Below are positions 1-54,630 of a stretch of DNA of 64,000 bases, piece after piece (the first letter of the stretch is position 1; each line of letters opens with the position of its first letter). The notes under the pieces were generated by a model. The model had not been told where the DNA came from and did no database searches. It saw only the letters and a program-made list of their open reading frames with translations. Origin of the DNA: Laetiporus sulphureus 93-53 (Eukaryota; Basidiomycota; Agaricomycetes; Polyporales; Laetiporaceae); contig NW_024468584.1 of NCBI RefSeq assembly GCF_001632365.1, positions 1-64,000 of the forward strand. The letters are read 5' to 3'. The translations under genes were made by a program, and so were the position numbers.

Positions 1-1132
1 CTAGAGAGACTTTAGTCAGAAGAAATGCTTGCATGAAACTAGAGCGCACACCTGCAGTAGACACCTCTGTACCCGTCTGTAGTGCTGAGGACGGAAGATC
101 GCATCGCAGTTCTGAGAGCGAGCCAGAGGCAGCATCCAACACTCGCTGCCCGTCCCATTTGTATGGTGACTCATCCTTATCGAGGTCTGTAAGGTACAGT
201 TTCTCCAAGTGACTCAAGATGCCAGGATAAGCAAGGAAGTCGATGAGTTTCCCAGCTTTCTGGAGATCTCCTGTGAGTTTCAAGTAGCGGATGTTGACGC
301 GATCACGATATGGACCAAATGTATCGCGGTGGAAGTGGTCATGTGTGAATCGCAGGCTTAAGCATTCGAGCTTGACGAGGTGTGGCAGTGCGCATACGAA
401 GCGCCCAAAGACAGTGATTGATGGGAATGTGACCCAGTAGAGCTGGAGGCAAGTGACAGAGAAGCCAGAGAGATGCAGGAAGACGTCGCGGTGCATCGTC
501 CACGGCTTCCACTCTGAAGACCAGATTGTGAGCTTCTCCAAGCGGGGCAGCTTGCGAGCGAGCAGAATCGCCGCCAGCGACAGGCTTGACGGAGCTGAGG
601 TCTCTATCCGCCAATCGCGCCATATGTCCATATAGTGCGCCCGCTCTGACAGCTCGGGCGTCTGCTTCAGCGCCTTCACATATGCCTTCACACCCTTAAC
701 ATTCCTGATCGTGATCTGCCTGTGCAAGTGAAAGCGACTCAGAGGGTACCATGCTCGGCAGACGCGGTTGCACTCCTGCAAAGCACCCTGATCGTCCCAC
801 AGATGGTCAATCACGTTCTCCCACACCTCGATCGGAAGCTGCGGGAGAGGTCCCGTCGCGACTGGTTCCACCTCGGGCTCTACCGCCGGTTGCGCCTCGA
901 ATTCCCAGTCGGATTCCAGCTCGGGTTCCAGCTCAGATTCTACCTCGGATGAGGCCGCACGGTCCGCCTTATCCCTCCCATTGATCTAACGCAGTGAGCA
1001 CGTAAATGGATAGGAACGTATACATGGGATTTGCCCGCTTACGGTTCCTGCAAGCTGTTGTGAATTGAAGATTTTCCATCTTTTCGTCCCGTCCGCGAGA
1101 CGTTTCAGCTTCCATTCGAAGGAGTCCGTCAT
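1..1132 (-). CDS. F-box protein, copy 1 (3' end beyond the window)
   Basis: F-box proteins recruit substrates to SCF ubiquitin ligases; the target here is unknown. Exon 1 is 1132-1043 (30 codons starting MTDSFEWKLK), followed by a GTAAGC donor. The acceptor TTAG ends at 986 and exon 2 runs from 985 to the left edge. An acidic Glu/Ser stretch precedes the F-box core (LPQLPIEVWENVIDHLWDDQ, then VCRAWY). The remainder resembles an irregular leucine-rich substrate domain (for example LPRLEKLTIW, FGRFVCALPHLVKLEC). The frame is open to position 1. Gene structure and protein match the copies at 47903 and 54631, but the orientation is opposite. The sequence at 1-35 corresponds to the 32-nt segment that is an intron in copy 3; here it is read through in frame. 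The family assignment is firm and the function is inferred. Confidence 0.82.
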
Positions 1133-2151
1133 TGGAGTAAACAGATGCGGAGGATGGTCACAGGTGTGAGTTTCCAAGCCGGCTCTTTGCAATATATGTA
1201 TACGTCTCATCGCATGCAACGTGGTTTGCGGTTCTGTATATCATATCTTCTACATACCCCCCACATGACCGCGTGCATCGCCTTGCAATGCAAGCACTAC
1301 ACAGCCGTGTTGGAATCACGCAGCCATTCAATCGGGGTGCTATCTGCGGGTGCTGTACGCACGCCGTCTGTTCATTGATCATGCACAGCCCAACGGTATG
1401 ATTGGCGGTTGACGAAGCAGAACCAGGTTTACCTGGGCGGCTTCAGACACGGGCAACAGGTGAGGCGTAATGTGCGTAGCGCGAACAGTTCATTGTTTCA
1501 AAGTCAGTATGTGTGTCCCTAGGTGCGTGCTTATGGCCCACGCACATTACAACGCACAGAGTCAGGATCGTATGTGCCTTGCAGATGGATGAACATCCGG
1601 GAGGCTCATCTAAACTCCCATATACAGCGCCCGACTAGAGGTCTCTTCGTATACTTCAGGCTCTGCGGATATTGCTGCATCATTTAAAAATTCAGGGCAC
1701 TTCTGGGAATGGAACGACCAGTATTCTGCATAGCATCATAGATACGCTGCGCCTCAACGAACATCGCAGCTGTCAGCACTGCTACGGGACGGAGTGAGGG
1801 CAAAGGGGATGGCTGGAGAAGCTTCGGGGCGCCGCGCTTCGTCACGTACACTTCTTATCAGAATATGATATCCGATTGATAACATCAAACCACACATACC
1901 TCAACGTTTCGTCAAGTGGACCACATCGCTGCACTGGTGCAGACACCACGAGTGCGGCCATGAGGTTGCCTACCCGTCATCGCCGCTGAGGCTATGCCAC
2001 CACAATGAGGCTGTCAATAGCAGTACCGCAATATGCACAGGGCGCACGCACACAGGTTCGAAAGATGCAGAAGGAAAACGCAAGGACGTCGTGGTCCTCG
2101 AATACCTAGGAGCTGCGCCACGTCATTCCTGCAGTCACAGCCCACGGTTGA

Positions 2152-2485
2152 AATGGAAGCGTTCGCTGACGCACCGCATTCGACCCACGTCCGCGGCGCG
2201 AGGAGCGTCTGCTGGACAAGACAGGCGCTGACAATTCACGCAGCGGTAGTCGAGTCGACAAAGCGGCCGATTCCTCGAGCTTCCAGCCAGGAAACCTTCG
2301 AGATGGTGCCGGTGCGAAGCAGGACAGGAACATGCGCGATGGTGAATCGGCCGCAATGGAGAAGACGAGGAACGATGACGCTCACGATCACTCAGATTTT
2401 ACGCGTGCATGTGGGGATGTTGTACATCGCGCCCTTCGTCTGCTTACAAGTGCAGCGCCTGCAAGCGAGAATCGGGTCTTGTTGA
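2152..2485 (+). other. Repeat-borne open frame, divergent from the F-box gene
   Basis: An open frame in the 5' flank of F-box copy 1, starting MEAFADAPHSTHVRGARSV. Related sequence sits at the same place in unit 3 (53691-53317, minus), in unit 2 (frame broken, about 46930-46550) and more weakly in unit 4 (60489-60229). In a second frame the shared DNA reads DKAADSSSFQPG, then KTRNDD and HRALRLPTSAAP, which looks at least as protein-like, so the true frame is unclear. It could be an exon of a decayed divergent gene or simply repeated non-coding DNA. No family was recognised. Confidence 0.3.
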
Positions 2486-3780
2486 TATAGATGTTGAGGC
2501 GTGAGGCCATACTAGCTGACTCGCAATAACAACATCGCAGCTTGATGGAATGGATACACGCAAGGCCGCGAGAAGCAGGTGGGTGACACCAAGCTGTCAA
2601 GGTGTCCGCATAGAATCTGCGCTCCACATCGGCCCGTATACTGCCCATACTTGGTCTGCTGATGCACCAGATAAATTCCACATCTGATTTGAGGGACCTG
2701 TGAAGGCTGACAGCCATCTGCGATGCTAACCGTCCAGGCGGTGACAGTCAACAAGGTGGTCATTCGCTCGAGCTGTCAGCCAGAGACCGGATGGTCATGC
2801 TGCACATTCGCAGAGGCGGATCACTAACAAATCGTAGTGGACGAAAATTGGAGTGAAGTGGACGAAAAATCAGGACGTACTTTTGGACGAATCGTCCATC
2901 TATTCACATTGCAGGCGCGCATGGATCTTATGCCTAGCATGGTTGCATGGATTTTAGGGCTCTACTACGAGTGTGTTGTCCGGAAGCGAGGACTATGGAG
3001 AATGTTGAGATTGCACGGCTTTGTCGTGCAGAGTCGATCAATTAATGCGCCCAAACATGCCAGTGCAGGTGGCACGATCGGCATCAGGTTGATGGCATCA
3101 GCCCGTACCACTGAGATTCGTGCTCAGCGAGCGTTCCATGGCCACCATGTCTGCATTGAACGCCACCAGTCGCCTTTGACGAGGCATGCTTCGTGCTTTT
3201 CGTCTTCCTCATTTCGACGATTCATAGCTAATTGTTTGTGGACACTCGATTAGTCATGAATGTGGTGAATTTCGAAATCTTCGCCCCACTCTGCCATGTG
3301 CACTCTCAGAAAGTACTTTCAGCTCGCGCCGCTAGATCAACCGATTTTTCGCATACAAACGACGAGAACCTCGCTATGTTCAGTTCTCGTGCACTGATAC
3401 TGGCCACTGCAATCACGCAAGATGTCAATGCGTTCGCTGTCATCCTGCCCGGAACCGCTCCCGTGCTGGCCGCAAAAACGCGCCTGTCTGTGCTCGAACC
3501 GCACAGTACCGAGATGCTGAGCTATCACAAATGAAGGATGAGAAGCATGCTGTAGCTTGAGGTGTTTGTGCATCACGCCGAAGCTTGAAAGGCGTTCGTG
3601 TGGTATCTGGCTGTCGCAGCACGGAAGGGCAGCAGGTGAGCGTTTTCGTGAGAAGGGTAATTTAGGATGGGGATATTCGTGGTGCGTGCTGGATCATGTC
3701 GATGGTGGGCTTCTGCAACCTGTCTCGTTCATTAGTCGATTTTATGGGCCGTCTTGTAGCATTTTCCTTCATGCCAGAGA

Positions 3781-17261: not shown

Positions 17262-18515
17262 CTAATTCAGTAACTCGACAATATGTGCGACAAGGCTTTT
17301 CATGACCTCTGCCTTCTGCTTACCCACGGAAAGCACTTCTTCATGAGATACCACCTGCGCAGGCGGCTGCTTCACCTTCTGCCCGGCCAGCTTTTCACAC
17401 CAATTAGCCCCCTAACTGTCAACCGCAACTCGCAGCACGATGTTTACTCACCTCGGCCTTCACCTCCGCTTTGATGCTCCGGTAGGAATCCGGGATGATC
17501 ACCGGGTTCGTGACCAGACTCAGCACGAGCACCTCCATACCCTCCTGGCGCGCCGCCAGCACCTCGGGCACGGTACTCATGCCCACCACATCCGCCCCTG
17601 CGGCGCGCAGGAAGCGCCCCTCCGCCGGAGTCTCATACGTCGGCCCAGACACCCACGCGTACGTGCCCTCATATATCGCAGAGTCCTCGAGCTGAAGCTC
17701 GTGGGCTGCCAGGAAGAGCAGACGGCGCAGCTTGGTGGAGTACGTGTCTGACAACGGCATGAATCGTGGGTGATCCGGGTCGACGAGGGGCCCGAATAGC
17801 GGATTGAGAGATCCGGTCATGTTTGGGATCGCCAAGTGGTCATGAATTGCGACGACTGCATGCATAGAAGCGCATGTATCAGCTCGCTGCCGTCGCACGC
17901 TATGACAAGACGCTATACCCACTAGTGCCCACCGGAAATTTTGGATTCAACGCGCCGGCGGCGTTCGTGACTGCAATCAACGGCGACAGCTCAACCACGG
18001 GTCCACGGACGTAGGAATGCTCGGCTGCCACACCGGTCACGCACTGATGACATTCTGCACGCCCAGCTTTGCGAACACCCGGATGGGGTATACGACCGTC
18101 GACAATTTGTGTCCTTCATATGTGTGGAACTGGCTGGGATCCATCAGCGGGCCCACTTGGAGCAGTCAATGGAACAATGCACCCGTCCGAGCATTGCTAC
18201 GACCGGCACGCCTGCCCCTGGCCCGAGGAGTCCAAATGCCAGTGCACTCCGATGCCCAGACACTAATGCATTATAGTAAGCAATGATTGTGAGTAGCTCG
18301 GGCTCACGTAAGACGCGCTGAGGCATATGCTCACCAGTACTCTTTCCAAAGCCTTCCAGCTCAGAGTACGGCACCTCGACCACGTCTCGGAAGCTGGATG
18401 CCAGCGTCGATAGGCCAGATCCGCACACGATGCCAACGCGCGGCTTCAGCAGGTGTTCTGGGAGCATACGGGCCAGAACATCCAGGGTCGATGTGAACGG
18501 CTGGGACTCTGACAT
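17262..18515 (-). CDS. Purine nucleoside phosphorylase
   Basis: It cleaves purine ribonucleosides with phosphate to free base and ribose-1-phosphate (purine salvage, cytosol; trimeric PNP/MTAP class). Six exons, all phases consistent: 18515-18335, 18262-18183, 18129-18045, 17970-17923, 17855-17452, 17390-17262; total 308 aa. Motifs seen: GIVCGSGLSTLASSF (phosphate loop), HRSALAFGLLG, RFHTYEGHKLSTVVYPIRVF, TNAAGALN, HDHLAIPNMTGSLNPLFGP, GTYAWVSGPTYETPAEGRFL and GADVVGMSTVPEVLAARQEG. Length and motifs match the family, so it looks fully functional. The frame is open upstream to 18788, but the start at MSESQPF fits the family. Its 5' flank and first 19 codons are duplicated at 21,985-21,870 as the front of the chimera. 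Confidence 0.9.
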
Positions 18516-19051
18516 GCTTCGCTCTTTGATAGAAATGATGAGCACGGACGAGTGGGTAAAGATGAGGCTGTTCAATAAACGTTTACGATGCTTGCGAGTC
18601 CCGAGAGCAGGCCTGAGCAAGGTAGTCGAGGAGGATATAACGCCGGAATTTGCCGGGTACGTACATGGGTCACGTGCAGAAGACGCGTCGCGACGCAGCG
18701 AATGGGAGGCCAGCCCATTAGTGGCAATTAGGAGCCAGTTGTAGCGGGAATAAACACCGATAAACAGTGCGTGCCCTTCCAGGCGCATTTTTTGACTATC
18801 TTGATCTCTACAGAATCAAGGGGTATGTACATGGGGTATGTACAACGCTCTGACACTGGTGCTTCGATAGTGACAGTGTGAGGCTTCCTGCGTCAGTCAG
18901 CCCGCAATAGCCCTTGTGAACGCTATGCTTGCCTGCGCCTCCACGCCTGATCGGGTCATGGCGGGGAGTTACCGTACGTCCTGTTCCTTCTTCAGTCAGT
19001 GCACAATATCTCAGGTATGATATAGCTCAGGCCATGGTCTGAACTACAACA
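18516..19051. promoter_or_regulatory. Divergent spacer, PNP promoter region
   Basis: Upstream of PNP on the minus strand and of the APH-like relic on the plus strand. The first 60 or so bases above the PNP start are also present above the chimera start at 21926, so at least this much proximal 5' flank was copied. No discrete promoter element can be asserted from sequence alone. Confidence 0.35.
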
Positions 19052-19945
19052 CTCTCTGACACTGAGCTACTCGGACTTTTCAAGCGGTCAGAACTAGAAG
19101 TGTCGGACGACCACCTGAAGAACCCGTTAATCGACATTCGCGTCCGTCCCCGTTAATCGACATTCGCGTCCGTCTCATTGGCAGGGACACAGTCGTCAAG
19201 TATCCGTCCACACGTCGATCCGAGATTGATACTCTTCACCTTGTCAGGGCCGCCACTTCCATCCCCGTTCCAGCTCCCCGTCGGATGATCACGGGTGACC
19301 GCCCAGACTCACATTATTTCGTAATGGAGTTTGTCCCTGGTCGAACGCTGGATCAGTGTTGGTCTAGCCTCTCTTTATGGAGAAAGGTTAAAATTATTTG
19401 GACATTGAGAGGATATGTCAAGCAGCTTCGTCAAGTTCATTATCGGCCTGCAGAAGGGGAGCTTCGACCTGGACCCATCGGCGAGCAACCTCAAGAGTGC
19501 GAAGGATTGTGTTTCACTGATTATGTGTGTAGACCGAATCAGAATCTGACAAGATATTCATATGCTTCAATAGGGTGCCGGTCCATTTTCGAACTACGCC
19601 GAACTTGCCGAGTGGTTCTCGCACAAGCTTTCTGTAGCCCAGCGCATGAAAAAAGCGTCCATTTTGGCAAGACCATTTGATGCGTCCATGCCCTTAGTCC
19701 TGACACACCTCGATCTTGCCCCTCGCAACTTGCTCCTGGGCAACGATAATCGTCTCTGGGTATTGGACTGGGGCTTATCCGGATTTTATCCTAGATGGTT
19801 TGAGTACGCGGCAATGGTGTGGGATTGGGAGCAGCTTGGCGGGTGAGGGCGACTCGCGGCGCAGTGTGTTGCGGGGTGCTATGAGAGGCAACGGCGCTTC
19901 TTTTCTGATATCTCATGGTCCCTGATGACTGGTTTTCTCATGTGA
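19052..19945 (+). pseudogene. APH-like phosphotransferase, frameshifted and nonsense-mutated
   Basis: Fungal aminoglycoside phosphotransferase-like (choline/APH kinase fold) genes are common in basidiomycetes; their substrates are mostly unknown. Seen: FVMEFVPGRTLDQCW, WTLRGYVKQLRQV, FTDY|GAGPFSNYAELAEW across an intron at 19528-19574, the catalytic HLDLAPRNLLLG and the metal-binding VLDWGLSGFYPRWFEY. Two breaks are visible. A perfect 26-bp tandem duplication (19123-19148 and 19149-19174) puts the N-terminal part (SDDHLKNPLIDIRVR) out of frame with the rest. An in-frame TGA at 19844-19846 follows DWEQLGG, after which the same frame continues QCVAGCYERQRRFFSDIS to 19945. The 5' exon is not resolved. 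It is probably inactive. Confidence 0.72.
19123..19174. repeat. Perfect 26-bp tandem duplication
   Basis: The unit beginning CCCGTTAATCGACATTCGCG occurs twice head to tail with no mismatch. It lies in the coding part of the APH-like gene and causes its frameshift (26 is not a multiple of 3). Perfect identity suggests recent origin or an assembly artefact. Confidence 0.9.
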
Positions 19946-20155
19946 ATGAGAAAACAGTGAAGGACCGATATAGTCGATTCGTACACACAGCCTTGCCCAG
20001 CCCTTACGTAACAACATGTGGAAACGCCTGCAGAGACAAGAGGTTGTATCACTAAATTTCACTCTAACTAGGCGTCCTGGTTAATAATGACATGAGACCG
20101 AGGCTGAATTCTAATCGACAACGGACTTACTAGGATCTTCAGGCTATTCCCGCGG

Positions 20156-20667
20156 TCAACCGTAGAATTCGCCTTTGCGGACAGGCATCGGGATGCTGGC
20201 AGTACGGCTTTTGGCCTGCTCTTCGATCCAACCCAAAAACGCATCCGTCGAGCCTGCAACTACCATCCCTGCACCTTTCAACTTCTCTAACACCACAGTG
20301 CACTACCAACGGCATCCATTTCCATCCACATCATACTTGTATTTGTCGAGATTGTGTTTAATGATGAAGTCGATATACTGCTGCACGGACGTTCCCGGCG
20401 AAGGCGTGACGTCGAACTGAAGAGCAACCTTCGCTCTGGTCCTCGCGTACGGCTTGCTCACCACCATCAGGACACCCGTCCGCCCATCTCCACCCGGCAC
20501 GATGTCGATTAATACCGATCGGTCTTCGATGTGTAGGTAGAAGCGCCAATGATGAACGTTTTGTCCGTGCTTGTAGATACAGCTGAAGTTCCGGTCACGA
20601 CGATGTTGCTGACGGTCATTGGGCCGTCAACGGCAGCGACATAGCTTTTGAGAAAGACGGTGGACAT
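20156..20667 (-). pseudogene. DUF7770-like protein with in-frame stop
   Basis: A small fungal protein family of unknown function. Recognised segments: SVLIDIVPGGDGRTGVLMVV, KPYARTRAKVALQFDVTPSP, VQQYIDFIIKHNLDKYKYDV and GNGCRW. The frame then meets TAG at the codon where the family, as I remember it, has an aromatic residue before Cys, and continues without interruption as CTVVLEKLKGAGMVVAGSTD, AFLGWIEEQ to a TGA at 20158-20156. The ATG at 20667 (MSTVFLKSYVAAVDG) lies in a different frame from the HHWRFYL segment; the joining intron or frameshift could not be resolved. Probably inactive, or C-terminally truncated if translation ends at the TAG. Confidence 0.6.
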
Positions 20668-21179
20668 GGCGGGCGCAGATATGAGAGGATTAGAAGGTGC
20701 GGGTGAAGGGTTACTGATTAGACACCCGTCATATGCTTATAAATGCATTTTGATAGACGCATCGGCTGCACGAAGGCAATTTCTCGGCAACGTTTCCCCG
20801 CAAGCTCCAACAGCCTGACGGTACTTGTGGTTCCACCCTAATCTGCAAAATGGTCGTACAGCCCGAGTTTCTCATTACAAACATGGGTAACATGTATATG
20901 ATTTTTTTATGGCATATTTCACCCTGCGTATGACTTTGATAGATGAGTAGGTGTGTCTGCACAAGGGCAATCACTGTGGCCATGTGCTCAGTAGTGGCTG
21001 ACTACTTCCGACCAAAGTCATTGGATAGATCTGCTCCGATCCTACTTCCAATTTTGGGTGATCAAAAGCCTTCAGATGACTCCCATTCATATCACCAAGA
21101 GTACGGATTTTTTTTTCAGCCGGCGTGTTCCAGATTGAGGAAACATTAATCAATCAGCTGTCGCGACAGGCATCAATTG

Positions 21180-21985
21180 CTGCTAGAAAGGCGATCACAC
21201 ATTCCAAAGTCCGAGTGGCCAATTGCAATCAAATTCGAGTTCCGGAAGTAATTGTTCGCGGAAAGAAAAACACGCTGCTTGGGCACTGTATAAGTACATG
21301 TACATTCGAAGGAAGTCGACTACCCGACTTGGAGGCAAACGTGGACAGGGACCCGCCCTGACAAATCCCAGTCATCTGGTCCATATCATACAATCCGATG
21401 TTACATCATTTATCAGCAGATCATGCATATGCCTTGCACCGCGCATTAGGCATGCTCGTCTCAATCCGTCGCTACACAGGAATAGGAGTGAGCCTCACTT
21501 GCGTGAAGGCATTTGCGAGCTCCGCAGTTGACACGTCGTCGAGATGGATGACGGAGCGATCCTGCAAGGACATGCAAGTCAGTAGGCAAGCCTAAAGAGC
21601 AAAGTATGAATGCGTAGACGTGCAACGCACCTTCTCGGACTCCTCCAGGAGCTCGCTCAAGTTCTGTCCGCCGACGTGCAGGCCATGCTGGTGCGCCAAA
21701 GTCGACATGCGTATTATCGCCACCATCGAGAACACGGCCTTGCGGACTGCGCAGCAAAGGCCCATCGTCAGCTCCACACCGGGACATGAGGTGAGCGCTG
21801 GAACGCACATGTCTTCCGCGCGTCGAAGTGCTTCTTGACGTGCGGCAGCAAGTCTGTCATGCCGCCATCTGGGAGTATACGGGCCAGAACGTCCAGGGTC
21901 GATGCGAAAGGCTGGGATTCTGACATGCTTCGCTCGTTGATGGGAATGATGAGTACGGATGAGTGAGTAAAGATGAGACGGTTCG
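21180..21985 (-). repeat. Segmental duplicate of the CaMK 3' end joined to a PNP 5' end
   Basis: 21180-21875 matches 23300-24065 (CaMK last exons plus 3' flank). About 21870-21985 matches the PNP start and its proximal upstream (about 18460-18575). The join falls at a CCAGA pentamer present in both parents. An in-frame loss of 13 codons in the last exon and several substitutions distinguish it from the kinase gene. Confidence 0.85.
21472..21926 (-). CDS. Chimeric PNP N-terminus / CaMK regulatory-tail protein
   Basis: Three exons, 21926-21809, 21746-21631 and 21561-21472, give 107 aa with no stop. Residues 1-19 (MSESQPFASTLDVLARILP) are the PNP N-terminus. From residue 20 (DGGMTDLLPHVKKHFDARKT, then FRKAVFSMVAIIRMSTLAHQ) the protein is the CaMK segment after the kinase core, including the basic hydrophobic stretch where CaM kinases bind calmodulin. 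It ends GGQNLSELLEESEK, DRSVIHLDDVS, LANAFTQVRLTPIPV and a TAG created by a 1-nt loss relative to the kinase gene. Both kinase introns keep GTGCGT donors and CAG acceptors, and all phases fit. No kinase domain and no PNP active site remain. Whether it is expressed is unknown; if so it could be a kinase-free calmodulin-binding peptide under a PNP-derived 5' flank. Confidence 0.6.
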
Positions 21986-22199
21986 ACGTCGAGGCTATAT
22001 ACTAGACTCGAAAAGTGCCGCGTCGCCGCGGCGGGCCCCTTGCTCGGTGAGGTGCGACAACGTGTTTTCGTTTGGGAGGTGGGATGGGAACTCTACCATG
22101 TCAATATGGAAATTCACGAACCGAATGGATTTTTTACGGAACACGCGTATGCGCTACAATGAGCGGGATGAAAGATCCGCAAAGATCACCTATTGAACG

Positions 22200-23130
22200 A
22201 CGGTACGGGCGTATTTCTTGCGACCGAATCCTCCTTGTTCCTTCCGCAAATGGACCTTAGATGCCGAGATAGGCTGATGCCAAGGAGGGACGACGACGTT
22301 GATCTGACGTGTACCCGCGAAGAAATTGTTATCTTCGCACCATCATTTCCGCCAATTACTTCGTGGATGACAGTGGCTTTGAGGAGGACGATCATGCCAA
22401 AAACACGTCGTTCATATTCCTTGGGGGAAGTCATCTTGCCTTTGATACCCATATGCAGGGGTGGGATGGCCTATATATTGGCCCGTGTCGATGAGCTTTT
22501 GAAGAGCTTCCTTACCTGTTTTGCAGTGATAAACAAGACAGGTAAAGAAGCTCTTCAAAAGCCCGCTCGATGCCGTGATGAACCATCACAGCATCGATGG
22601 CCAGTGATGAAGTGCGAACGGGCTGTCAACTATCAAATGCATGAGCGCGGAGTTGTCGTTTAGTGAGAACTTACAGTCCGAATAGTCATTGTTTCGGAGG
22701 TGGCCGTACGACTGTCACCGTCATCATCGTCGTCGTCGTCCTCAGCATAAGCTTGTTTGTTCTGTGCACGATCAACGGTAAGAAATGAGCGCAGGAATCA
22801 ATACACCAACATACCTCATAGAGAGCGTGGCAGATTGGTGCACCGTGTTTGATAGCTACTCGAGGTGTTCGTGCTGCTCATCGAAGCACCTGGTGTCTTC
22901 CGGGAGTTCTGGATTTTCTTAAAGCCAGCGATGATATCGTCCCGAAGAGCGACCGCGCGTTCCGCGTTTCTCGTTGGTGCGATGATCCGTGCACGCGCCC
23001 TGGTGTTGTGGATCGGCTCGTTCCAGTTGTTCCACCCTCCGCATACATAGTATGTGTGCGGAGGTCACGGTTGGAACATACAGCCACGAGTTGGCCTCGT
23101 CCATCTTACCGAGAACAAGGTTGTGGTGGG
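22200..23130 (-). pseudogene. Unresolved gene or gene remnant
   Basis: Several coding-like pieces lie in order on the minus strand: CGGWNNWNEPIHNTRARARI and ALRDDIIAGFKKIQNSRKTP near 23050-22900; KHGAPICHALYE, an intron at about 22806-22755, ENKQAYA and a seven-Asp run ending in a GTAAGT donor near 22680; LQKLIDTGQYIGHPTPAYGY near 22500; and PKEYERRVFGMIVLLKATVI with HE near 22410-22360, then a possible GTAATT intron and LRKEQGGFGRKKYARTVV near 22200. HE after a hydrophobic helix recalls a metallopeptidase HExxH start, but the second His is not visible. Phases between the pieces do not join cleanly. I do not recognise the family; it may be broken. Confidence 0.3.
22495..22562. repeat. Inverted repeat, 25-bp arms
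   Basis: Left arm 22495-22519 (GCTTTTGAAGAGCTTCCTTA...) pairs with right arm 22538-22562 with one mismatch and an 18-nt loop. It falls inside the unresolved minus-strand gene, where both arms read as plausible coding. Confidence 0.8.
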
Positions 23131-23557
23131 AGAAAATGAAAGAAGGCATTTATAGAGAATAGAAGTGTACATGTAAATTCCTCGTTGAATGATCGTAGCA
23201 GTTTATACGGAGACTAGGTACAACGCCCTCGGAATTCGCCTGAACCGTACATGTGCCAGTGTGACGGACGCGTCGCGACGTAGCGAATGGGAGGCTAGCT
23301 CGTAATTATGTGAGTAATCTGGCAATTGAGCCCAATTGCAATCAAAGTCGAACGGAAGTAATTGTTCGCGGAAAGAAAATTACGTTGCTTGGGCACTGAA
23401 TACATGTACGTTCGAAGGGAGTCGACTACCCGACTTCGAGGCAAGCGTGGACACCCCGCCCTGACAAATTCCAGTCATCTGGTCCATATCATACAATCCG
23501 ATGCTACGCCAATTATCAGCGGATTATGCCTTGCACCGCGCGTTAGGTATCCTCGTC

Positions 23558-25689
23558 TCAATCCGTCGCTACCACAGGAACAGGAGCGAGCTTCACTTGC
23601 GCGAGGGCGTTTGCGAGTTCCCCATTGTCCGCGCGCGACCCAGCTTCCGACTCGGACGAGCTCATTGACACGTCGTCGAGATGGATGACGGAGTGATCCT
23701 GCGAACGCATGTAAATCAGTGGGCAGGTCTAGGGAGCGAACTCTCAAAGCATACCTCGTCCACGTGTTCCTACGCGAATGACACGATAAGCCTTCACAGT
23801 GGAGACGATATAGGTAGACGGGCGACGCACCTTCTCGGACTCCTCCAGAAGCTCCATCAAGTTCTGTCCGCCGACTTTCGAGCCATGCTGGTGCGCCAAC
23901 GTCGACATGCGCTTCATCGCCATCATCGAGAACACGGCCTTGCGGACTGCGCAGCAAAGGCCCATCGTCAGCTCCACACCGGAACATAAGGCGAGCGCTG
24001 GAACGCACATGTCTTCCGCGCGTCGAAGTGCTTCTTGACGTGCGGCAGCAAGTCTGTCATGCCGCCGTCTGGATTCTCCGGGTCGGGCACGTAGTGCGGC
24101 TCTTTCGACGCGAGCCATCCGTGCTGCAGCGCCTCTTCTGCTGTAGGCCGCGAGCCGGGATCAATTGTCAGGCACGATGACACAAAGTCTTTCGCTGTCT
24201 CCGAGACGTTCGCCCAGTACTCTGCTGCAACAGCATCGGCATATGCAATCTCTTATACGACGTTGAGGGAAGCCCACCTGGCTCGAACTTGTAGTCACCC
24301 GCAAGAATCGCCTCCATTTCTTGCTGCTGCGTTTCACGGTCGAATGGGGTATAGCCTGGTCCGTGTATGAGTTTCCGAGTTGGCTCAGGATGGAGTATCG
24401 CTCACCGCAGAGTAGGAAGTAGGTGATGACACCCATTGCCCAGATATCGACGGGCTTGCCATGTCCAGCTGAGATAAAGTGTGAATGTTGTGCGTACACA
24501 AAGGGGACGGGAACGAATGCTCACTTTTCTTGAAGATCTCTGGAGCCATGTACTGGAGACATTCGGTCAGGACATCGATGCAAGTGATCAAGATAATCAC
24601 ACTCACTCCCGGCGTCCCACACACTTCAGTCAGAAGGTTGTCATCCATGATTCGGCTCAGACCGAAGTCTGCAATCATGACGTCCGCATCCTCAGCTTTC
24701 GTGCGGAAGATAAGGTTCTCCGGTTTAAGGTCTACCGGCTGCATGTCAGACGATGTGAACATTCACTAGCAACGATGTTACGTGCCTCGATGCACGATCT
24801 CACAGTCGTGGAGATACTTGACGGCTCCCAAGATTGTCCTGATCAGCTCCGCGGCATCGCTGTGAAGGTGTAATCAGACAATAGCTGGGGGATCATAACA
24901 TGCCACGCACGCTTCGTAGTAGTTGCCTTTAGCACATATCCGGTCAAACAGCTCGCCTCCCGTGCAAAGGTCGAAGATAAGATAGAGGTTGTGCGCAGTC
25001 TGAAGAACGTTGGATGTACGATCAGTACCTGATAAGAGTTAACCCCTTCCCCTCCCCGCCCCCTGGAACATACCTCGAAGTAGTCGTGTAGTGTGACGAT
25101 GTTCCGGTGGCCCTTGGAGATCTTCTTCAACACAGCGATCTCGTTGCGAACCTGGCAGTCTGGCTGATCAGTCACTGCGTCGCAAGATCGTGAAGATCAT
25201 AGACATGAAGTGATCATGCAGCGCAGCAGCATGGATATTGCTGTTTCCATCCGTTACGATCAGGCTGCTTAACCAGCATCGCCGACCATACGGACAAAGG
25301 AGGATTATTCCTCCGTCAACCATGATCGCCCCGATATGCCTTCACGATCCTGATGTGCATGGATGTCTTCGTTCTGTTGAAAGCAGAGAGGTGGAATGGG
25401 GAGCAAGTGGACAGTAACGCCAGTGGCAAATGGCGCGTAGAGCAGACGGGGGGTCTGCAGAATTTTACTCACCATGTACTCCCGTCCCTCCATCAGCTTC
25501 TTGTTAATAACCTTGCATGCGTAGTATTTGCCCGTCTTGATGTGGACGGCTTCCTTGACAATCGCATATGTCCCGCTACCCAGTGTCTTCCCTGTCCGAT
25601 ACTGCAGGAGTCATCAGCCACAATCGCGCGGATTGGTGTTGGTGTTGTGTAGGTCTGACCTGGCATGGTACCGTTGCTGGCTGGACCAT
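23558..25689 (-). CDS. Ca2+/calmodulin-dependent protein kinase, CaMKI type
   Basis: A Ser/Thr kinase transducing Ca2+/calmodulin signals. Twelve exons: 25689-25660, 25601-25473, 25151-25074, 24999-24911, 24859-24786, 24731-24607, 24552-24525, 24468-24406, 24355-24278, 24224-24009, 23946-23831, 23698-23558; 388 aa, all phases consistent. Seen: the Gly-rich loop (LGSGTYAIV, about 17-25), catalytic Lys40 (YYACKVINKK), HRDLKPEN at about 132-139, DFG at about 155, CGTPGYMAPE, WAMGVITYFLL, then the regulatory tail HVKKHFDARKT, FRKAVFSMMAMKRMSTLA. Intron 5 is GC-AG and splits the HRD codon for Asp. The intron between exons 2 and 3 is about 320 nt, long for this locus. The frame is open upstream to an ATG at 26085 (MGAQLSAQRRRR) that would suit N-myristoylation, so an extended isoform is possible. 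Its 3' end is duplicated at 21180-21875. Confidence 0.88.
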
Positions 25690-45429: not shown

Positions 45430-47902
45430 TCAACGTCGACCTTTAGAACAATGCTGGAGCTTCGACAAAACAACTAGCGAAACTTCTGCGACATGGGAAT
45501 GCAGGAATTTCTGAATCATCCAAAACGAGACAGCCGATATCGAGAGGAACAACTTGAAGCCGGCAAAGTCGGGGATATCTTCCTTCCGGTGCATCGTCAT
45601 GCGGACCTTGTCTCCTGGACAGGTTGGCCACGAACGAATTGACAGCTTGCGCGGTCTTTGTGCTCGCGGTGGAGTCAGTATCAGTGCGCGAAACTTTAGC
45701 GCAGTGACGTTCTCGTCGGATGCATGCGAAAAAGCGATTGAGCTGGCGGCGAGCAAGGTACTTTCTGAGTGGCAGTGAGAGCGCCAATGGCGGAGCGGGG
45801 CGAAGACTTCGAAATTTACCATGTTCATGACTAGTTGACTAGTCGAGTGTCCACAAACAGCGCTATCGACGCGCACAATCGGAGCAAGCTATGACTATTG
45901 AATCGTAGAGTAGATGTCTCGTCAAACGCCGAGACATGCAGTGGCGCGGGTTGATGCCATCAAACTGATACCGATCGTGCCACACTGGCAGTTTAAATGA
46001 TTGACTTTTACTCTCGCAGGGTGAACTTTGACGGCACGAGAGAGCCGTGGAATCTCAACGTTCTACGTCGACTGCCCTCGCTTTTGGACACCACGCTTGT
46101 GGCTGAGCTCTTCAACCCAGACAATATGCTAGGCACAGGGTCCACGCGCGCCTGCAATGTGAATAGACGGTCGATCTGTCGACTCAAGTACGTCGTGATT
46201 TCACTCCAATTATCATCCACTGCGATTTGTATCTATCAGAACAACATTCACTGATCTGCCTTCACGATGTGCAGCACTATTATCTGGCTCGCGAAGCCTT
46301 GTCTGGCTGATAGCTCGAGGAAACGATCACCATGTGGACTGCCGCCTGGAAGGTTAGCATGGCAGATGGCTGTCTTCGCCTTCACGCGTCCCTCAAATCA
46401 GATGGAATGAAGGCTGGTGCATCAGCAGACCAAGTATAGCCGGTATACGGACCGACAAGAGAGCGCAGATCCTATGCGGACCCTGGTGTCACCCACCTGC
46501 TTCCTACGGCCTTGCGTGCATCCATTCAATGAAGCTGCGATGCTGTTATCGTGAGCCAACTACTAGTATAGCCTCAAGCTTCAACATCAGTATCAACAAG
46601 ACCCGATTCTCGCTCGCAGGCGCTGCCCTTGTAGGCAGACGAAGGGCGCGATGTACAGTATCCCCACCTCCACGCGTAATCTGAGCGATCGTGAGTGTCG
46701 TCGTTCCTGGTCTTCTCCGTTGCGGCCGATTCATCATCGCACATGCTGCTATTTAGCTTCTCAGCGACACCATCTGGAAGTTTTCCTGGCTGGAAGCTCG
46801 AGGAATCAGCCGCTTTGTCGACTCGACTACGCTGCATGAATTGTCAGCGCCTGTCTTGTCCAGCAGACGCTCCTCGCGCCACGGATGGGGGTCGAATGCG
46901 GTGCGTCAGCGAACGCTTCTATTCAGACAAAGTTGGGATGTGGCTATCCGGGAATTGACTGGCGCAGCTCGTAGATATTCGTGCATCATTACGTCCTTGC
47001 ATTTTTGTCTTCATCTTGCCATTCTGTGTGCGTGCGCCCTGCGCATACTGCGGTATCGCTAGAGGGCCTCATTCTAGTGGCATAGCCTCAGCGGCGACGA
47101 CGTCAGGACGGGTGGGCAACCTCATGCACTCGTGGTATCTGCGCCGATGTGCCGATGTGGTTCACTTGACGACTCTTAACGGTATGTGTGCTCTGATACT
47201 GTCAATCTAATATCATATCTTGATGGGAAGTGTACATGATGAAACGCGGCGCCCCGAAGTTCCTCCAGCTATCCGATTTGCTTTCACTCCGTCTCGTGGC
47301 AGTGATCATAGCTGCGATGTTCATTGAGGTGCAGTGCGTCTACGATGCTGTGCAGAATAGAAGTTTTTCCGTGCTCAGAATGGTCGCGGATGCGCAGCAG
47401 TGCAGCAATGCCCGCAGAGTACGAAGTGACTTCTAGCCGGGTGCTGAATATGCGAGGTTCGATGAGCTTCTATACAACTGCAAGGTACGTAAAATCCTCA
47501 GTCTGTGCGATGTAATGTGCGTGAGCCGTAGCGACTCACTCACGGACACACATAAGTACTTTAGATAATGAACAGTAGGTGCTATACATGTCATGCCTCG
47601 CCTCACCTGTGCCCGTGTCTGAAGCCGCTGAGGTACACATGGTTCGACTGCCAAATAGACTGCTGACATGTGATGAACGGGCGGTGCACGTACAGCAATC
47701 ACCCTAAGTGACCGGCTGGTCTGAACATAGCTGTGCAATCCCTGCCTTGCACACTGCACGCAGTTAGGTAGGCGGTGTGTGGGTTCCCAGAAGACACTAC
47801 GTACAGAGGCACGTTGCAATGCGATGAGACTCCTACATATATCCCAAGAGCCGGCCTGGAAAGTCAATCCTGCGACCATCTACCGACCACTCGACAACAA
47901 CT

Positions 47903-49445
47903 ATGGCATCCTCAGAACAGTACCTGAAACACGTCACGAAAGCTTCAGGGGACAAGGTACTCAAGGTACAAAGGCTTGAGCCAACGGTAAGTGGGAAAGC
48001 GCCGCGTATGCGTTCTTGACGATTTATGCGCTGCGCTGCGTTAGATCAAGGGTGAGGCTGTCAAGACTGGCTCATCGGCGACGAGTACTCTGCCGCAGCT
48101 TCCGGTCTGGGTGTGGGAGAACGTGATTGACCATCTGTGGGACGACCAGTGGACTTTGCGGAAGTGCAGGCTCGTCTGCCGAGCGTGGTACCCTCCCTGT
48201 CGCTTCCACTTGCGCACGGACATCACGATCTATAGTGTCAAGGGTGTGAAGGCATATGTGAAGGAGCTGAAGCAGGCGCCCGAGCTGTCGAAGTGGCCGC
48301 ACGATATGACCATATTGGGTCATCTGAGGACAGATCTATCAGCATTGTCGCTGGCGGCGATCCTGCTCGCTCGCAAGCTGCCCCGGCTGGAGACGCTTAC
48401 AATCTGGCATTCAGAGTGGGAGCCGTGGACGATGCACCGCGACGTCTTCCTGCATCTCTCTGGCTTCTCTGTCACTCGCCTCCATCTCTATGATGTCAGA
48501 TTCCCGTCGATCACCGTCTTTGGGCGCTTCGTCTGCGCGCTGCCACGCCTCGTCACGCTCACATGCTGGGATCTTGAATTCACACATTACCACTTCCACC
48601 GCGATACATTTAGTCCATATCGCGATCGCGTCAATATCACCTCCTTGGAACTCAGCAATTTCGGGATACATGGGAAACTCGTCGACTTCTTTGCTTATCC
48701 TGGCATCTCGAGTCGCTTGCAGAAATTGGACCTCAGAGTTACAAATGCGGATATGTCACAATACAAATGGGACCGGCAGCCATTGTTGGATGCTGCCTCT
48801 GGCTCACTCTCACAACTGCGATGCGATCTTCGATCCTCAGCACTACAGACGGGTACAGAGGTGTCTACTGCAGGTGTGCGCTCTAGCTTTATGCAAGCAT
48901 TTCTGCTATTTAAAGTCTCTCTAGCTTTGGTGCCATCATTCAGTGACCATACCTCACTGCAGAGACTACGGATGGACTTGTTTGATTCTTTGCAAGATTT
49001 TAATCTGGACATATTGTGTCAAACGTTACTTTCAATCAAGTCAGGCCAGCTTCGAAAAATTTTGATAGTGGTTCATTGCCAGGAACAGGAAACACTCTTA
49101 TATGGATGGAGCAACACGAAGGAGGAAGTGAAGGGCTTTCTGAAACTCCATCAGTCTGCTCATTCCAAAGAGATTGACAATCATTTTTCGTCTGATTCAT
49201 TCGGATTGCTGGGCAGAATAGAATTTGTGCTTATATATCGGAGTTGGACCAGTAGTACAACATTGTCTGGGGAGCAGTGGAAGCAGCAACTTGAATCTTT
49301 ATTCCCAAAACTGACCAAACGAGGCATCTTCCGGTGAGTATCCCACATTTTACGCCTAGACTCATGCATTCACCCCGTGTCGCGATATTGGCACTACAGC
49401 GCCACGATTGGGGCAAAGGGATTATTGCCGGATGAAAGCTTTTGA
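47903..49445 (+). CDS. F-box protein, copy 2
   Basis: Exons: 47903-47986 (28 codons, MASSEQYLKHVTK...), 48045-49333, 49400-49445. Introns are GTAAGT...GTTAG and GTGAGT...CACTACAG, in phase. F-box core: LPQLPVWVWENVIDHLWDDQ, CRLVCRAWY. The substrate domain follows with repeating hydrophobic strands (LETLTIWHSEWEPW, FGRFVCALPRLVTLTCWDLE, ISSRLQKLDLRVTN) and a C-terminal helix segment (EQWKQQLESLFPKLTKRGIF). The 32-nt segment at about 48893-48924 that is an intron in copy 3 is read through here (MQAFLLFKVSL) without disturbing the frame; its would-be donor is GC and its branch site is lost. The protein looks intact, about 470 aa. A likely SCF adaptor with unknown target. Confidence 0.82.
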
Positions 49446-50224
49446 TTATCACGGCCATTGTATCTCCAGCAGATCCTTCCCACGTTCGCGGATTTGTCTC
49501 CACTCTGGCAACAGTGAAGGGCACACTCAAGTGGACTGCGCAGGCTTCTACCCTCACCTCGCCGGCCCTCCGAAGTGTTGTATGGCCGTGCACGTTCTCG
49601 GTTACCCACCACGATTTCTTCCGCAATCCCCTACTCCGCGTACATCAAGGTCTAGCATCCGGTTCTCGCATATCGCCATTGCCATTCCGACGCTCAGACA
49701 TCTATTTTCTCCATCTCGTCTCCATCTCCGTATGCTCCACCAACGATCGCTCATCCCACGACTGCTACATTCCCCATTCATACACATGCGCTATCCGCTG
49801 GAATCCACCCACTAGGACTCGATGGCGGCCAGGTAATCTTGGTCAGGATTCCCCAGAAGATGTCTGCCCGTCTGTTTCGTCGTCCGCACGGCGATGCCTG
49901 AGACGCTTATTCTATCGGACTATCCGCATTTTGACGGGTGATTCAATATGGGCACAGCAGACCCACTGGATCCGTCTCCGCTGAGAGGCTCCTGAAGGCG
50001 AACTGGCCTGATATTTTATCTCATGCCACACTACATATTCCGTGCTCGTATGTGCACCCACATTCGCAATCTCTACAAACAATGTCAAGACGCTATATCA
50101 CGCAACGAACCACGGCGATATGACAACATCAGGCGATGCGATTTCAGGAGCGAACTGACTCTAGCCGGCGGAGGCTCAACGGAGTCCGCACGCTCTCCTC
50201 CCCTGTGATCCGTAGGTGCTCAGT
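49446..50224. other. Spacer downstream of F-box copy 2
   Basis: Repeated downstream of copy 3 (56.3-57.0 kb). Only short frames are present. The shared block around 49820-49920 and 56640-56740 marks the duplication. Confidence 0.45.
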
Positions 50225-50910
50225 CAGCCCAGGATGACCTCGAACCTCATCTGCCGCTCGTCATTCAACTCGAACACATGGCCTCAATGAAAACATGCAG
50301 TTGGCCTGCCACCAGCGGACATCCCACCGATACACTCCTCCATCGACGATCCGCATCAGACCAGATTCATCTGTACGAGCGCGAACCCGTGCCCGAGACA
50401 TATGCGTGGACTGTCCGTACGCATGAACGTCAACGCGTGCCGGTGGCCCTTGATCTTCCTCGTACGAAGCAGGATCTAGCGGTCCTTAACTCAACGATCC
50501 AACCAGAGCCCCCTTACCTCAGGGCCCAACAGTGCGCGGACCATGTTCACGAACGGGATTGGGATGGCGCCGATCTGGCCTGCGCTGACGGAGATGATGT
50601 CGACGCTCGGGCACGGAATTCCGCTCACGCGGGAGATGGAGAGCGGCGTGACGGCGCATTGGATGACCTAGCAAGTACCTTCCGGACGTGAGGGACGGAG
50701 ACGGCAGGCCACAGCGTGTTCCACGGATTTGCGGTGCAATCGCGAATTCACCGGATGACCGCGTTGAGGTACGTGAGCACAGGCGCTGGCTGTTCCTGCA
50801 TCGAGGCGGCACCTCATCAAGTGAACGAACTGCTCACGTAGCGTGCGCTGGACGGCACGCTGCTTGCAAAGCTCAGTGGGCTCGATGAGGCCCCACTGCA
50901 CGTCCTGCAG
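50225..50910 (-). pseudogene. P450 relic 1 in the array
   Basis: C-terminal half of a P450 in broken frames, antisense to the F-box gene. In order on the minus strand: WGLIEP (compare WCLIEL in the intact gene), PVLTYLNAVIR (compare LPYLDAVVQE), DIISVSAGQIGAIPIPFVNM, then GHRHALTF and PRICLGHGFAL around the haem loop with the Cys still present, and FELNDERQMRFEVILG. Multiple frameshifts and a stop inside the K-helix region show it is non-functional. Closest in this window to the P450 at 7253-9465. Confidence 0.75.
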
Positions 50911-52440
50911 GTTTGGCGTCAGGATAGCGGGAGGTTTCGACAGGACGTGTTGCTGGAGTACTTGGATCAGGTGCAGTGTTGGAAGTGCTGTGTATGGATC
51001 GGAGTTGTGCTGGCTCAGTGGATGTTGTCGCATACCCGGCGCGGTTTAGGACTTTATCTACTGAAAACACGAGGTTTGTATTGTTTCACGGCGAGTGTAT
51101 AGTACAGGAATTGGAGACGGACCTGCGAGGTTATGTGTTTCTGCAGACATTTGTAGAGAGGATTTGACTAGATTACGCAATATAGTCGGGCCTGTTCATC
51201 GCGCTTGCATCAGCCCAAGTCAGAACATGCACGCACTAACTGTACGATACTCTTATTCTCTATGACGCTCTCGACTATATTTGCTCTCCTCGAACATTCC
51301 GGTGACCCGTTGGTTGTATATTTGGTCTTCTCATCCAAGAATCGAGGAGCTAGAGGAGCGATGAGAGTGTCTTCACTAGAATTGAGGAGTCGGGCCATAG
51401 GGTACCCTGTTTCTAAGTCGATACCGGTCGCGACGTAATCAAAGATGTTCGCAGCCTCGAACGCCACGAGGTACGGTCCATCCTACAGGACGAAATTATT
51501 GTAAAGGTTATTGTAGGCATCCGAAGGACGTGATTGCGCACTTTAATTTTGCACTCTCGGACCACGCACAGCGATGCGACGATCCTTCACCTCTCCCCTG
51601 AACGCTGCCGACTTGCTCCATATCCCCTCCACACCTAGGTCCGTTGGAGATCTCCTCGATATTCTTGTCGAGCTTTTCCACCAGCCGGAGGTCCGATGAG
51701 ACCGGGCGCGGATACGACCGCTCCAGTCCATATGAATCTGCAACCCACATTGTCATTCGTAAGTGAATACAAGCAGTCGGCCATGAAGAAACACTTGCCT
51801 TGCATGGTGCAAAAATTGTGTCACTCGATTGAGGAGCCTCATGTCAAGCGCATGTGCCGAGCTGCGAATGCCGGATCTCACACAAGCAGCACACGGCGGA
51901 TGTCTCAGATGCGAACGATTCGATTAGATGCGCTCACGCTTGGTAGTCGTCTCGCGTGCCGAGTCATCAATAGCGAAACCGATCGTATGCTGAGCAAAAT
52001 CAACAGAGTCGATGTCTTCGTATTGATAGCAGACGTACCATGCTCGATCTGTTATGAAAATGTCTACCATATATTATCAAGCAAGAGGAATGTTGCAGGG
52101 CCTGCCATGAAGGCGAACGGAGTAGAATGAGAGGTCGTGAAGTGCAGGGTCGGTGACAGCGAAGGCAGAGCACGATGAGGTCGATCGGATATAGAGTCGC
52201 GAAGGAGAACGCTACAGGACAGTCGACAGATGAGCGAGAGAGGTCAGCAGCAGCTGCCATCGATATGATCCGGTACGCACCATACGCATCTCGATCCCAG
52301 CGTACCTCTCTCCATGAGAACGCTCACCTGCTGCCCTTCCGTGCTGCGACAGCCGGATACCACATGAACGCCTTTCGGCGGGATGCATGAGGACCTAAAA
52401 ACGTGACACGCTTCTCCTTCTTTATTTGTGACAGCTCAGC
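50911..52440. other. Repeated spacer, no gene resolved
   Basis: Shared with 57.8-58.9 kb. A minus-strand segment (AANIFDYVATGIDLETGYPM near 51450-51380) and a further one near 51730-51620 look like coding debris of an unrecognised gene; no exon chain could be built. Confidence 0.4.
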
Positions 52441-53316
52441 GACCTCGATTTTGCGGCTATGAGCGCAGACGGGCGCGTTTCTGCACCAAGCAAGAGCCTG
52501 AGACTACTACTGCTCCTCGGGAGGGATGGCCACGAACGCATTGATGGCTTGCGTGCGGTGGAGTCAGGATCTGCGAAATTCACCATGTTCACGTCTAATC
52601 TAGCGTCCGCAAAGCGAAAGCTATGAAGAACGAATGTTCAATCGTAGAGTAGAGACGAGGAAGAGGGAAAGCAGGAGCGAACCCGCATGTCTCGTCAAAT
52701 GCCGAGACATGCAGTGGCCATGCAGTGGCCAGGCGGCCAGGCGTGGATTGATGCTACATACTGGGCGCTAAGTTAATTGTTTAACTCTCGCAGGGCGAAC
52801 TTTGACGGCACGACGTAGCTGTGCAATCTCAACATTCTCCCTCGTTCTCGCTGTCGGACACCATGCTCGTATTAGAGCTCTTTAGTTCAGGCAGCCATGC
52901 CAGGTACAAGATCCACGTGCGCCTGCAATGTGAATAGACGGTCGATCTGTCGACCGTTCAAGTACGTCCTGATTTTTCGTCCGCCTCACTCCAATTTTCG
53001 TCCACTACGATTTGCATTTGTCAGAACGCAACATCCATTGATCTGCCTCTGCGACTTGCAGCACGACCATCTGGCGCGAGGAGCCTTCTCTGGCTGACAG
53101 CTCGAGGAAACGATCATATGTTGACTGCCTCCTGGACGGTAAGCGGCATCGCAGATGGCTGTCTTCGCCTTCACGGGTCCCTCAAACCAGACGTGGCATG
53201 CAATCGACGCGTTAGCAGACCAAATGTGGGCAATATACGGAGCGCAGATCCTATGCGGACATCTGCACCGCTTCTCGCGGCCTTGCGTGCGTCCATTCCA
53301 TCAAGATGCGATGCTG

Positions 53317-53691
53317 TTATCGCGAGCCAACTAGTATGGCCTCAAGCCTCAACATCAACACCAATGTGGCCCTTATCTTGCTTTCAGGCGCTGCGCTTGT
53401 AGGCAGACGAAGGGCGCGGTGTACAGTATCCCCACATGCACGCGTAATCTGAGCGATCGTGAGTGTCGTCGTTCCTCGTCTTCTCCATTGCGGCCGATCC
53501 ATCGTCACACATGTTGCTGTCCAGCTTCTCACCAACGCCATCTCGAAGGTTTCCTGGCTGGAAGCTCGAGGAATTGGCCGCTTTGTCGACTCGACTATCG
53601 CTGCGTGGATGTTCAGTGCCTGTCTTGTCCGGCAGACGCTCCTCGCGCCACGGACGTGGCTTGAATGCGGTCCGTCAGTGAACGTTTCCAT
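53317..53691 (-). other. Repeat-borne open frame, unit 3 version
   Basis: 124-codon frame beginning METFTDGPHSSHVRGARSV, collinear with the frame at 2152-2485 in the inverted unit and divergent from the F-box gene. No family recognised. See the note on competing frames at 2152. Confidence 0.3.
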
Positions 53692-54630
53692 TCACACCTT
53701 GGGCTGTGACTAGGAATGATGGAACGCACATCCTATGTTTTCAGGGACACAACGTCCTTGCATTTTCCTTCTGCATCTTTCGAAGCTGTGCGCGCGTATG
53801 CGCGTGCTGCAGTACTGCTAGAGAGCCTCGTTCTCGTGGCATAGCCTCAGTGGCGATGACGGGTAGGCAACCTCATGGCTGCACTCGTGGTGTCTGCGCC
53901 CAGTGCGGCGATGTGATGAAGGTATGTGTGGTTTGATACCATCGATTTGATAACATATCCTGATAAGAAGTGTACATGACGAGGCGCGGCCTCCCGAAGT
54001 TTCTCCAGCCATTCCCTTTGCCCTCGCTCCGTTACGTGGCAGTGCTCATGGCTGTGATGCTCCTCGAGGCGCAGCGTGTCTAAGATGCTGTGCAAAACAG
54101 CGGTCATTCGGTTCCCGGAGTCATTGCAAAATCCGAAGTGGTGCAGCAATATGCTTAAAGCCTTCTTGTCAGGCGCTATATAAGGGAGATTTAATGAACT
54201 TCATGGACGTGTATTCATCCAGCAAGGTGCGTCCTGAGTCTATGTGCTTTAAGGACGCACTGAAAGATGCACATACGGACTTGGAGGAAACGAGACAATT
54301 GCGCTATGCATGTAGTGCCTCGTCTTTTACCCGTGTCTGCAGCTGCTCAGATACACATGGTTCTGTTTCTTCGGCCGTTAATTATACCGCTTTGCTGTGC
54401 ATGCGTTATCGATGAATGGACGGCTTGGCTACAGCACCTGCAGATACTGTAGCACCCCGATTGAATGATTGTTGTCTGTGTGATCCGAACGTGGCTGTGC
54501 AGCACGGTCATGTGGGCGGTGTCTGTATTCCTGGAAGATATGGTATATATAGCCACGTTGCAATGCGATGAGCAGCCAGCTCGGAAACTCACACCTGTGA
54601 GCATCCTCCGCAACTGTCTACTCTAACGAT

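Follow-up and report, generated by a model that had tools for sequence, protein, structure and literature searches.

Telokin, an Ig-like domain with its own promoter, is an independent small product of the C-terminal region of myosin light chain kinase. Calspermin is the kinase-less, calmodulin-binding C-terminal part of CaMKIV, and the promoter that produces it lies within the kinase gene (PMC8122486). In Drosophila yakuba (PMC5460883), tandem duplications across gene borders form chimeras that are polymorphic and that the authors think are often very young, and RNA data revealed raised expression in 24 of 76 chimeras.

Here we describe a locus of Laetiporus sulphureus 93-53 (Polyporales), located on the 130,263-base contig C75 of the 38.6-Mb genome and analyzed within the window, the whole 64,000-nucleotide stretch of DNA under study. 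In this locus, the start of a purine nucleoside phosphorylase (PNP) gene is joined to the tail of a neighboring CaMKI-like kinase gene. Telokin resembles the predicted product of the chimera in being a small C-terminal piece of a kinase but is not a duplicated calmodulin-binding tail. The fusion belongs to a known kind, the chimeric gene made by tandem duplication. As in the D. yakuba cases (PMC5460883), the 5′ end of one gene is joined to the 3′ end of its neighbor and the parents are intact; unlike them, the L. sulphureus chimera stands in a basidiomycete reference assembly, is approximately 10% diverged, is split by inserts, and is known here from sequence. Similar to calspermin (PMC8122486), the predicted product would consist of a CaM-kinase C-terminal region that binds calmodulin, without the kinase itself, whereas its tail is encoded by a duplicated copy that stands apart from the kinase gene and begins with a PNP start. 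Within the set of papers searched, none mentions both Laetiporus and a chimeric gene. RNA-seq data sets of L. sulphureus 93-53 (SRP164792-164802) are named in PMC9723688, and further assemblies of the species, among them NWAFU-1 and ATCC 52600, are tabulated in PMC9602373.

Structure of the fusion

To delimit the homologous parts, the segment 21000-22200 was compared with the 64-kb window by BLASTN, and three matches besides self were obtained. The first, 21868-21984, matched 18457-18573 (89% over 117 bp, E 8e-39) and comprised 59 bp of coding sequence and 58 bp of 5′ flank of PNP; the second, 21614-21872, matched the kinase tail at 23814-24072 (93% over 259 bp); and the third, 21219-21616, matched the end of the kinase tail and its 3′ flank at 23332-23753 (76% over 438 alignment columns). 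These matches bear out the preliminary description of this DNA, which had reported the first 19 codons and about 60 bp of flank of PNP as fused in frame to the kinase tail; the kinase-derived copy, however, extends approximately 250 bp into the kinase 3′ flank, which that description lacked. In chimera exon 1, the PNP part was 89% identical to its source, and the kinase part differed from 24009-24072 at 1 of 64 bp. Furthermore, the PNP and kinase alignments overlapped by 5 bases, 21868-21872, the shared CCAGA pentamer at which the join had been placed; microhomology of at least 5 bases was found in 0.5% of random breakpoint pairs in the PNP and kinase genes. Both parents are whole and lie on the same strand as the chimera, PNP providing the 5′ part and the kinase the 3′ part.

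The spliced frame of the three exons in Table 1 runs through 107 codons without a stop, and both kinase-tail introns are retained with GT-AG splice sites, again in agreement with what had been proposed. The 39 bp missing from the last exon, earlier noted as an in-frame loss of 13 codons, are present in the related copy on contig C51 (see below), indicating that the loss occurred in the chimera. What had been missed is that, close to the end, 1 bp differs (GTGGTAG in the kinase versus GTGTAG in the chimera), which stops the chimera four residues sooner. The predicted product would carry the calmodulin-binding segment without a kinase domain.

Summed over regions, 64 of 638 aligned bases distinguish the chimera from the kinase, with differences in every region compared, from 1.6% in the exon 1 part to 26% in intron 2; against PNP, 13 of 117 bases differ. 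The chimera is therefore not a duplicated piece of the assembly, and an assembly error was ruled out. Taken together, these data confirmed the fusion as a structure.

Elsewhere in the window, several large direct and inverted repeats with approximately 68-83% identity were found at 1-3770 and 45600-61000, and the ORFs at 48111 and 54842 appeared F-box-like by eye from their translations.

Table 1. Coordinates of the chimera, its parents, and related segments (window positions unless a contig is given)
Feature	Position	Strand	Description
Gene order	25689-23558, 21926-21472, 18515-17262	-	Kinase, then chimera, then PNP
Intact CaMKI-like kinase gene	23558..25689	-	12 exons; own tail exons 23946-23831 and 23698-23558
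Intact PNP gene	17262..18515	-	308 aa, identical to public protein P0031
PNP source of chimera 5′ end	18457..18573	-	By BLASTN
TATA-like word stretch	21993..22007	-	TATATAG, ~75 bp 5′ of chimera ATG; word match only
PNP-like 5′ flank	21927..21984	-	58 bp, 8 differences
Chimera exon 1	21809..21926	-	PNP start, 18 codons + 5 bases (59 bp), then kinase post-catalytic tail
Junction microhomology	21868..21872		TCTGG (+) = CCAGA (-), common to both parents
Chimera intron 1	21747..21808	-	62 nt, GTGCGT...GCAG; 3 differences from kinase intron 24008-23947
Chimera exon 2	21631..21746	-	Holds predicted calmodulin-binding segment FRKAVFSMVAIIRM
Chimera intron 2	21562..21630	-	69 nt versus 132 nt in parent; ~63 bp lost
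Chimera exon 3	21472..21561	-	39-bp in-frame loss; early stop relative to kinase
Kinase 3′ flank copy, 3′ of chimera	21219..21471	-	Corresponds to 23332 and following; differs at 20 of 237 aligned bases
Old intergenic block, unit A	18644..18714		79%, E 3e-11 to 23230-23299 (local comparison)
Old intergenic block, unit B	23230..23299		Pair of 18644-18714
Insert splitting unit A	18736..21218		~2.5 kb; left edge approximate
Insert upstream of chimera	22008..23200		~1.2 kb; related to C45:332508-333479 (L015 2009-2980)
Incomplete PNP/kinase-tail fragment	C51:225848-226721 (L007 3349-4222)		PNP intron 1 to exon 5 joined to kinase last-exon region

Origin of the fusion

The locus is probably a chimeric gene fragment that was born from one tandem duplication and now evolves much like unconstrained sequence, most likely with no selected function. 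The ancestral order on the minus strand would have been CaM kinase, approximately 0.47 kb of intergenic DNA, and PNP. A unit of approximately 0.93 kb, reaching from the kinase post-catalytic exon through the 3′ flank and the intergenic stretch to PNP codon 19, would then have been copied in tandem (both sizes are our sum of the homologous parts). With the junction at the 5-bp microhomology, the parents would have stayed whole, and a PNP start with a kinase tail would have landed between them, in frame by chance and with the tail introns carried along. Two inserts (~2.5 and ~1.2 kb) would afterward have pushed the copies apart, and the fusion would since have changed much as expected for unconstrained sequence. 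If transcribed, it would encode a 107-aa kinase-less peptide with an autoinhibitory and calmodulin-binding segment.

A tandem duplication requires a junction of kinase tail and PNP start, whole parents, and the intergenic DNA present twice in order, and all three are seen here. Homology links three pairs of blocks whose order is the one required, namely, 18457-18573 with 21868-21984, 18644-18714 with 23230-23299, and 21219-21872 with 23332-24072; that a single event produced them, how large the pieces were, and in which sequence the steps followed are our inference from these blocks. The duplicated unit is continuous between its breakpoints and its copies are in tandem, although the two inserts interrupt them. 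A genome search in which the best candidates were scored found no third copy of the intergenic block, its only match being its partner at 23230-23299; because no further match was obtained, the block does not look like a dispersed repeat, and such an origin for it was rejected. Within the insert that splits unit A, a remnant of an APH-family phosphotransferase was recognized at 19100-19955 (+) (PF01636, E 3.2e-9), which has a diverged relative on contig C27, as was a DUF7770 stretch at 20120-20680 (-) (PF24968, E 1.5e-32).

Linkage of the two parents was then examined in other species, with agreement in contig size taken as a proxy for synteny. The CaMK and PNP records agreed in contig size in eight of the nine species common to both homolog lists (L. 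sulphureus counted), the ninth, Taiwanofungus, being a comparison of two different strains. The distance between the genes was judged from locus numbers only (FIBRA_06665/06670 and CERSUDRAFT_83936/83946). These records suggest linkage of CaMK and PNP beyond L. sulphureus. A DNA search of the L. sulphureus genome gave each parent once plus fragments and thus no dispersed kinase or PNP family, and a protein search of the same genome added only an insignificant match on C20 (E 0.85).

One of these fragments, on C51, combines the same two genes. Its PNP part, from intron 1 to exon 5 (81% to window 17738-18323), directly abuts its kinase tail (83% to 23576-23906), so that the ancestral order is kept with a deletion; PNP exon 1, the PNP end, and the kinase domain are absent, and the frames look broken by eye. 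Over 214 common columns, unique changes numbered 16 in the chimera, 16 in the kinase, and 13 in the C51 fragment, and 2 columns differed in all three. This star-like pattern indicates that the three parted at about the same time, and the C51 copy could thus be used to polarize changes. An ORF with weak similarity to Plavaka (E 0.015, short of the family cutoff) lies approximately 2.4 kb away from the fragment, and the region of the chimera is a mosaic with inserts related to C45, C27, and C31; both observations would fit capture and reinsertion of the pieces via a mobile element or patchwork repair instead of one tandem duplication. We regard this origin as quite improbable, given that the order and orientation of the three blocks match a tandem duplication at the parental site, that the parents flank the chimera on either side, and that visual inspection of both ends of the C45-like insert showed no terminal repeats or target duplications. 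One tandem duplication thus remains the preferred origin.

The public kinase model and the DNA upstream of the fusion

As far as 24009, the 353-aa public protein P0001 coincides with the kinase; it next takes up chimera exon 2 and finally reads into chimera intron 2. This join implies an intron of 2262 nt, compared with a median of 56 nt in the kinase gene. P0001 further shows IPVDLKPEN where the homologs displayed have IVHRDLKPEN, and a GC-AG intron at 24785-24732, missed in P0001, restores the HRD motif. P0001 is therefore probably wrong both at the regulatory tail, where the 2262-nt intron is needed, and at the HRD motif, which is lost; it is presumably a gene-finder product. In our own model, the beginning of kinase exon 10 was set to 24224, which adds one residue and agrees with P0001. 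Should read-through transcripts splice exon 10 (24009) to chimera exon 2 (21746), the kinase would gain an alternative 3′ end and with it a second type of calmodulin-binding tail. P0001 displays exactly this join, and the frame fits; nevertheless, the length of the implied intron, the intact exons 11 and 12 of the kinase itself, and the simultaneous loss of the HRD motif, which gives P0001 the look of a gene-finder construct, make such splicing extremely improbable.

Upstream of the chimera, the 5′ flank had been described as of the salvage-enzyme type. This holds for the first 58 bp, which are PNP-like, but not beyond, as from approximately 80 bp upstream of its ATG the chimera is preceded by other DNA. 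No TATA-like word occurs in the PNP flank at the place corresponding to that of the chimera, but TATAT is present near -124 and TTTAT at -64. The other DNA is the insert 22008-23200, which matches C45 in two blocks (72 and 84%). The C45 copy sits between a WH1-domain gene and a gene with EF-hand Pfam matches. The latter we take, by sequence recognition, to be calmodulin. The copy lies approximately 190 bp upstream of the calmodulin ATG (L015 1817), in the same orientation to calmodulin as the insert to the chimera. Two copies of this approximately 1-kb segment were found in the genome by a search scoring the best candidates. No terminal repeats or target duplications were visible by eye. An imperfect inverted repeat occurs inside the insert (22495-22562); its pattern had 7 exact matches in the genome versus 3 for the control, and 4 of the 7 lay in the two known copies, so it was rejected as a common repeat. 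Translation in six frames gave, at E 0.05, one Pfam match, below the cutoff of its family (PF14972, E 0.043), so no named protein family was recognized in the insert, and comparison of one reading with solved structures found nothing (best E 1.5).

As the insert matches DNA upstream of calmodulin, the locus might be a composite of three sources, with start codons from PNP, an autoinhibitory and calmodulin-binding tail from the CaM kinase, and upstream DNA taken from the 5′ side of calmodulin, which would express a free calmodulin-sequestering peptide in step with calmodulin itself. If true, this would constitute a home-made feedback on calcium signaling; we consider it highly improbable.

Substitution pattern, frame survival, and possible function

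The preliminary description had suggested a new gene for a calmodulin-binding peptide, proposing a dN/dS comparison of the tail with the kinase parent and naming a neutral pattern as evidence against the gene. The pattern found was neutral-like: dN/dS of the chimera versus the kinase tail was 0.088/0.104 by NG86, 0.088/0.110 by ML, 0.077/0.153 by LWL85, and 0.079/0.159 by YN00, corresponding to a ratio of 0.84 by NG86 and near 0.5 by LWL85 and YN00. Tail changes were then polarized by hand using C51 and the homologs. Hand counts assigned 10 nonsynonymous and 3 synonymous changes to the chimera branch, plus one synonymous change of unassigned side, and 7 nonsynonymous and 1 synonymous change to the kinase branch in its own tail (exons 11-12, 23946-23558), apart from one codon that did not resolve. 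The kinase's own tail carried about as many changes as the chimera in their common part.

Under neutrality, 73% of changes are expected to be nonsynonymous, and 10 of 14 is an ordinary outcome (P(N<=10) 0.56); the same count had a P of 0.0055 at an omega of 0.2 and of 0.21 at an omega of 0.5. When the three synonymous changes of the PNP part were added (10 of 17), P was 0.16 under neutrality, 0.036 at omega 0.2, and 0.54 at omega 0.5. The substitutions of the chimera are thus not distinguishable from neutral; an omega of 0.2 is disfavored, and one of 0.5 is compatible. The ratios near 0.5 by LWL85 and YN00 and the PNP-derived part, with dN 0.05 versus dS 0.23 on 5 changes only, count against neutral decay. 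At PNP codon 8, the chimera has A and PNP has T (A in 18 and T in 3 of 40 homologs), and at codon 17 they have I and M (I in 10 and M in none of 40), tallied without gaps in 40 of the 42 homologs. Both amino acid differences in this part are more likely PNP's own changes. The kinase-derived stretch of exon 1 plus intron 1 differs at no more than 4 of 126 bases, perhaps through gene conversion or constraint; gene conversion of this block is suggested at a P of 0.015, with the block edge chosen after viewing the data.

Survival of the frame was simulated under neutrality from a model newborn fusion, requiring the start, the splice sites, and at least 100 codons. With 15, 20, 25, and 30 substitutions alone, the frame survived in fractions of 0.56, 0.47, 0.39, and 0.33, respectively; a separate substitution-only run gave 0.20 at 40, 0.17 at 45, and 0.13 at 50. 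With random 39- and 63-bp deletions added to the same four loads, survival was 0.09, 0.08, 0.06, and 0.05, and with a further 1-bp deletion, a change of unassigned side, it was 0.03, 0.025, 0.02, and 0.02. The chimera gene differs from its parents at 49 positions, half of which amounts to a load of approximately 25, and the rate of the C51 region would give approximately 43. These figures are biased, since an open frame is what drew attention to the locus. For this reason, and because the 1-bp change may belong to either branch, we treat the intact frame, start, and four splice sites as a weak hint of use.

The calmodulin-binding segment was compared with 27 homologs. Of the 30 listed, P0001 was set aside because it carries the chimera exon, and P0027 and P0030 because both lack the motif; P0005 and P0006, among those compared, are two forms from one species. 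F1, M8, and M14, which we presume to be the calmodulin anchors, were kept in the chimera, whereas two Met residues were changed, and position 12, K or R in all 27 homologs, was I. A search for annotated proteins like the chimera, limited to 0.55-1.75 times its length, gave four candidates, none of them significant.

Were the chimera a working new gene, its PNP-type start would drive a free calmodulin-binding, autoinhibitory peptide that would compete for calmodulin or inhibit the kinase in trans, in the style of calspermin. The intact 107-codon frame with both introns, the retention of F1, M8, and M14 in a segment well conserved among the 27 homologs, the TATA-like word 75 bp upstream, and a frame survival that, with deletions included, is somewhat improbable under neutrality all speak for such a gene. 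However, the neutral-like substitutions, the lost basic residue 12, the lack of an annotated relative among proteins of similar length, and a PNP-type flank of just 58 bp argue against it, and the proposed gene is unlikely in our view. On balance, a selected function for the chimera is not expected, and most likely the fragment has none at present.

The locus provides a well-resolved basidiomycete case in which a small tandem duplication with a microhomology junction yields a chimeric gene and spares the parents, and the chimera is diverged enough to ask whether luck or use has preserved its frame. The locus further suggests that the public kinase model is wrong at the regulatory tail. If expressed, the chimera would represent a kinase-less calmodulin binder that arose by duplication, compared with the internal promoter of calspermin.
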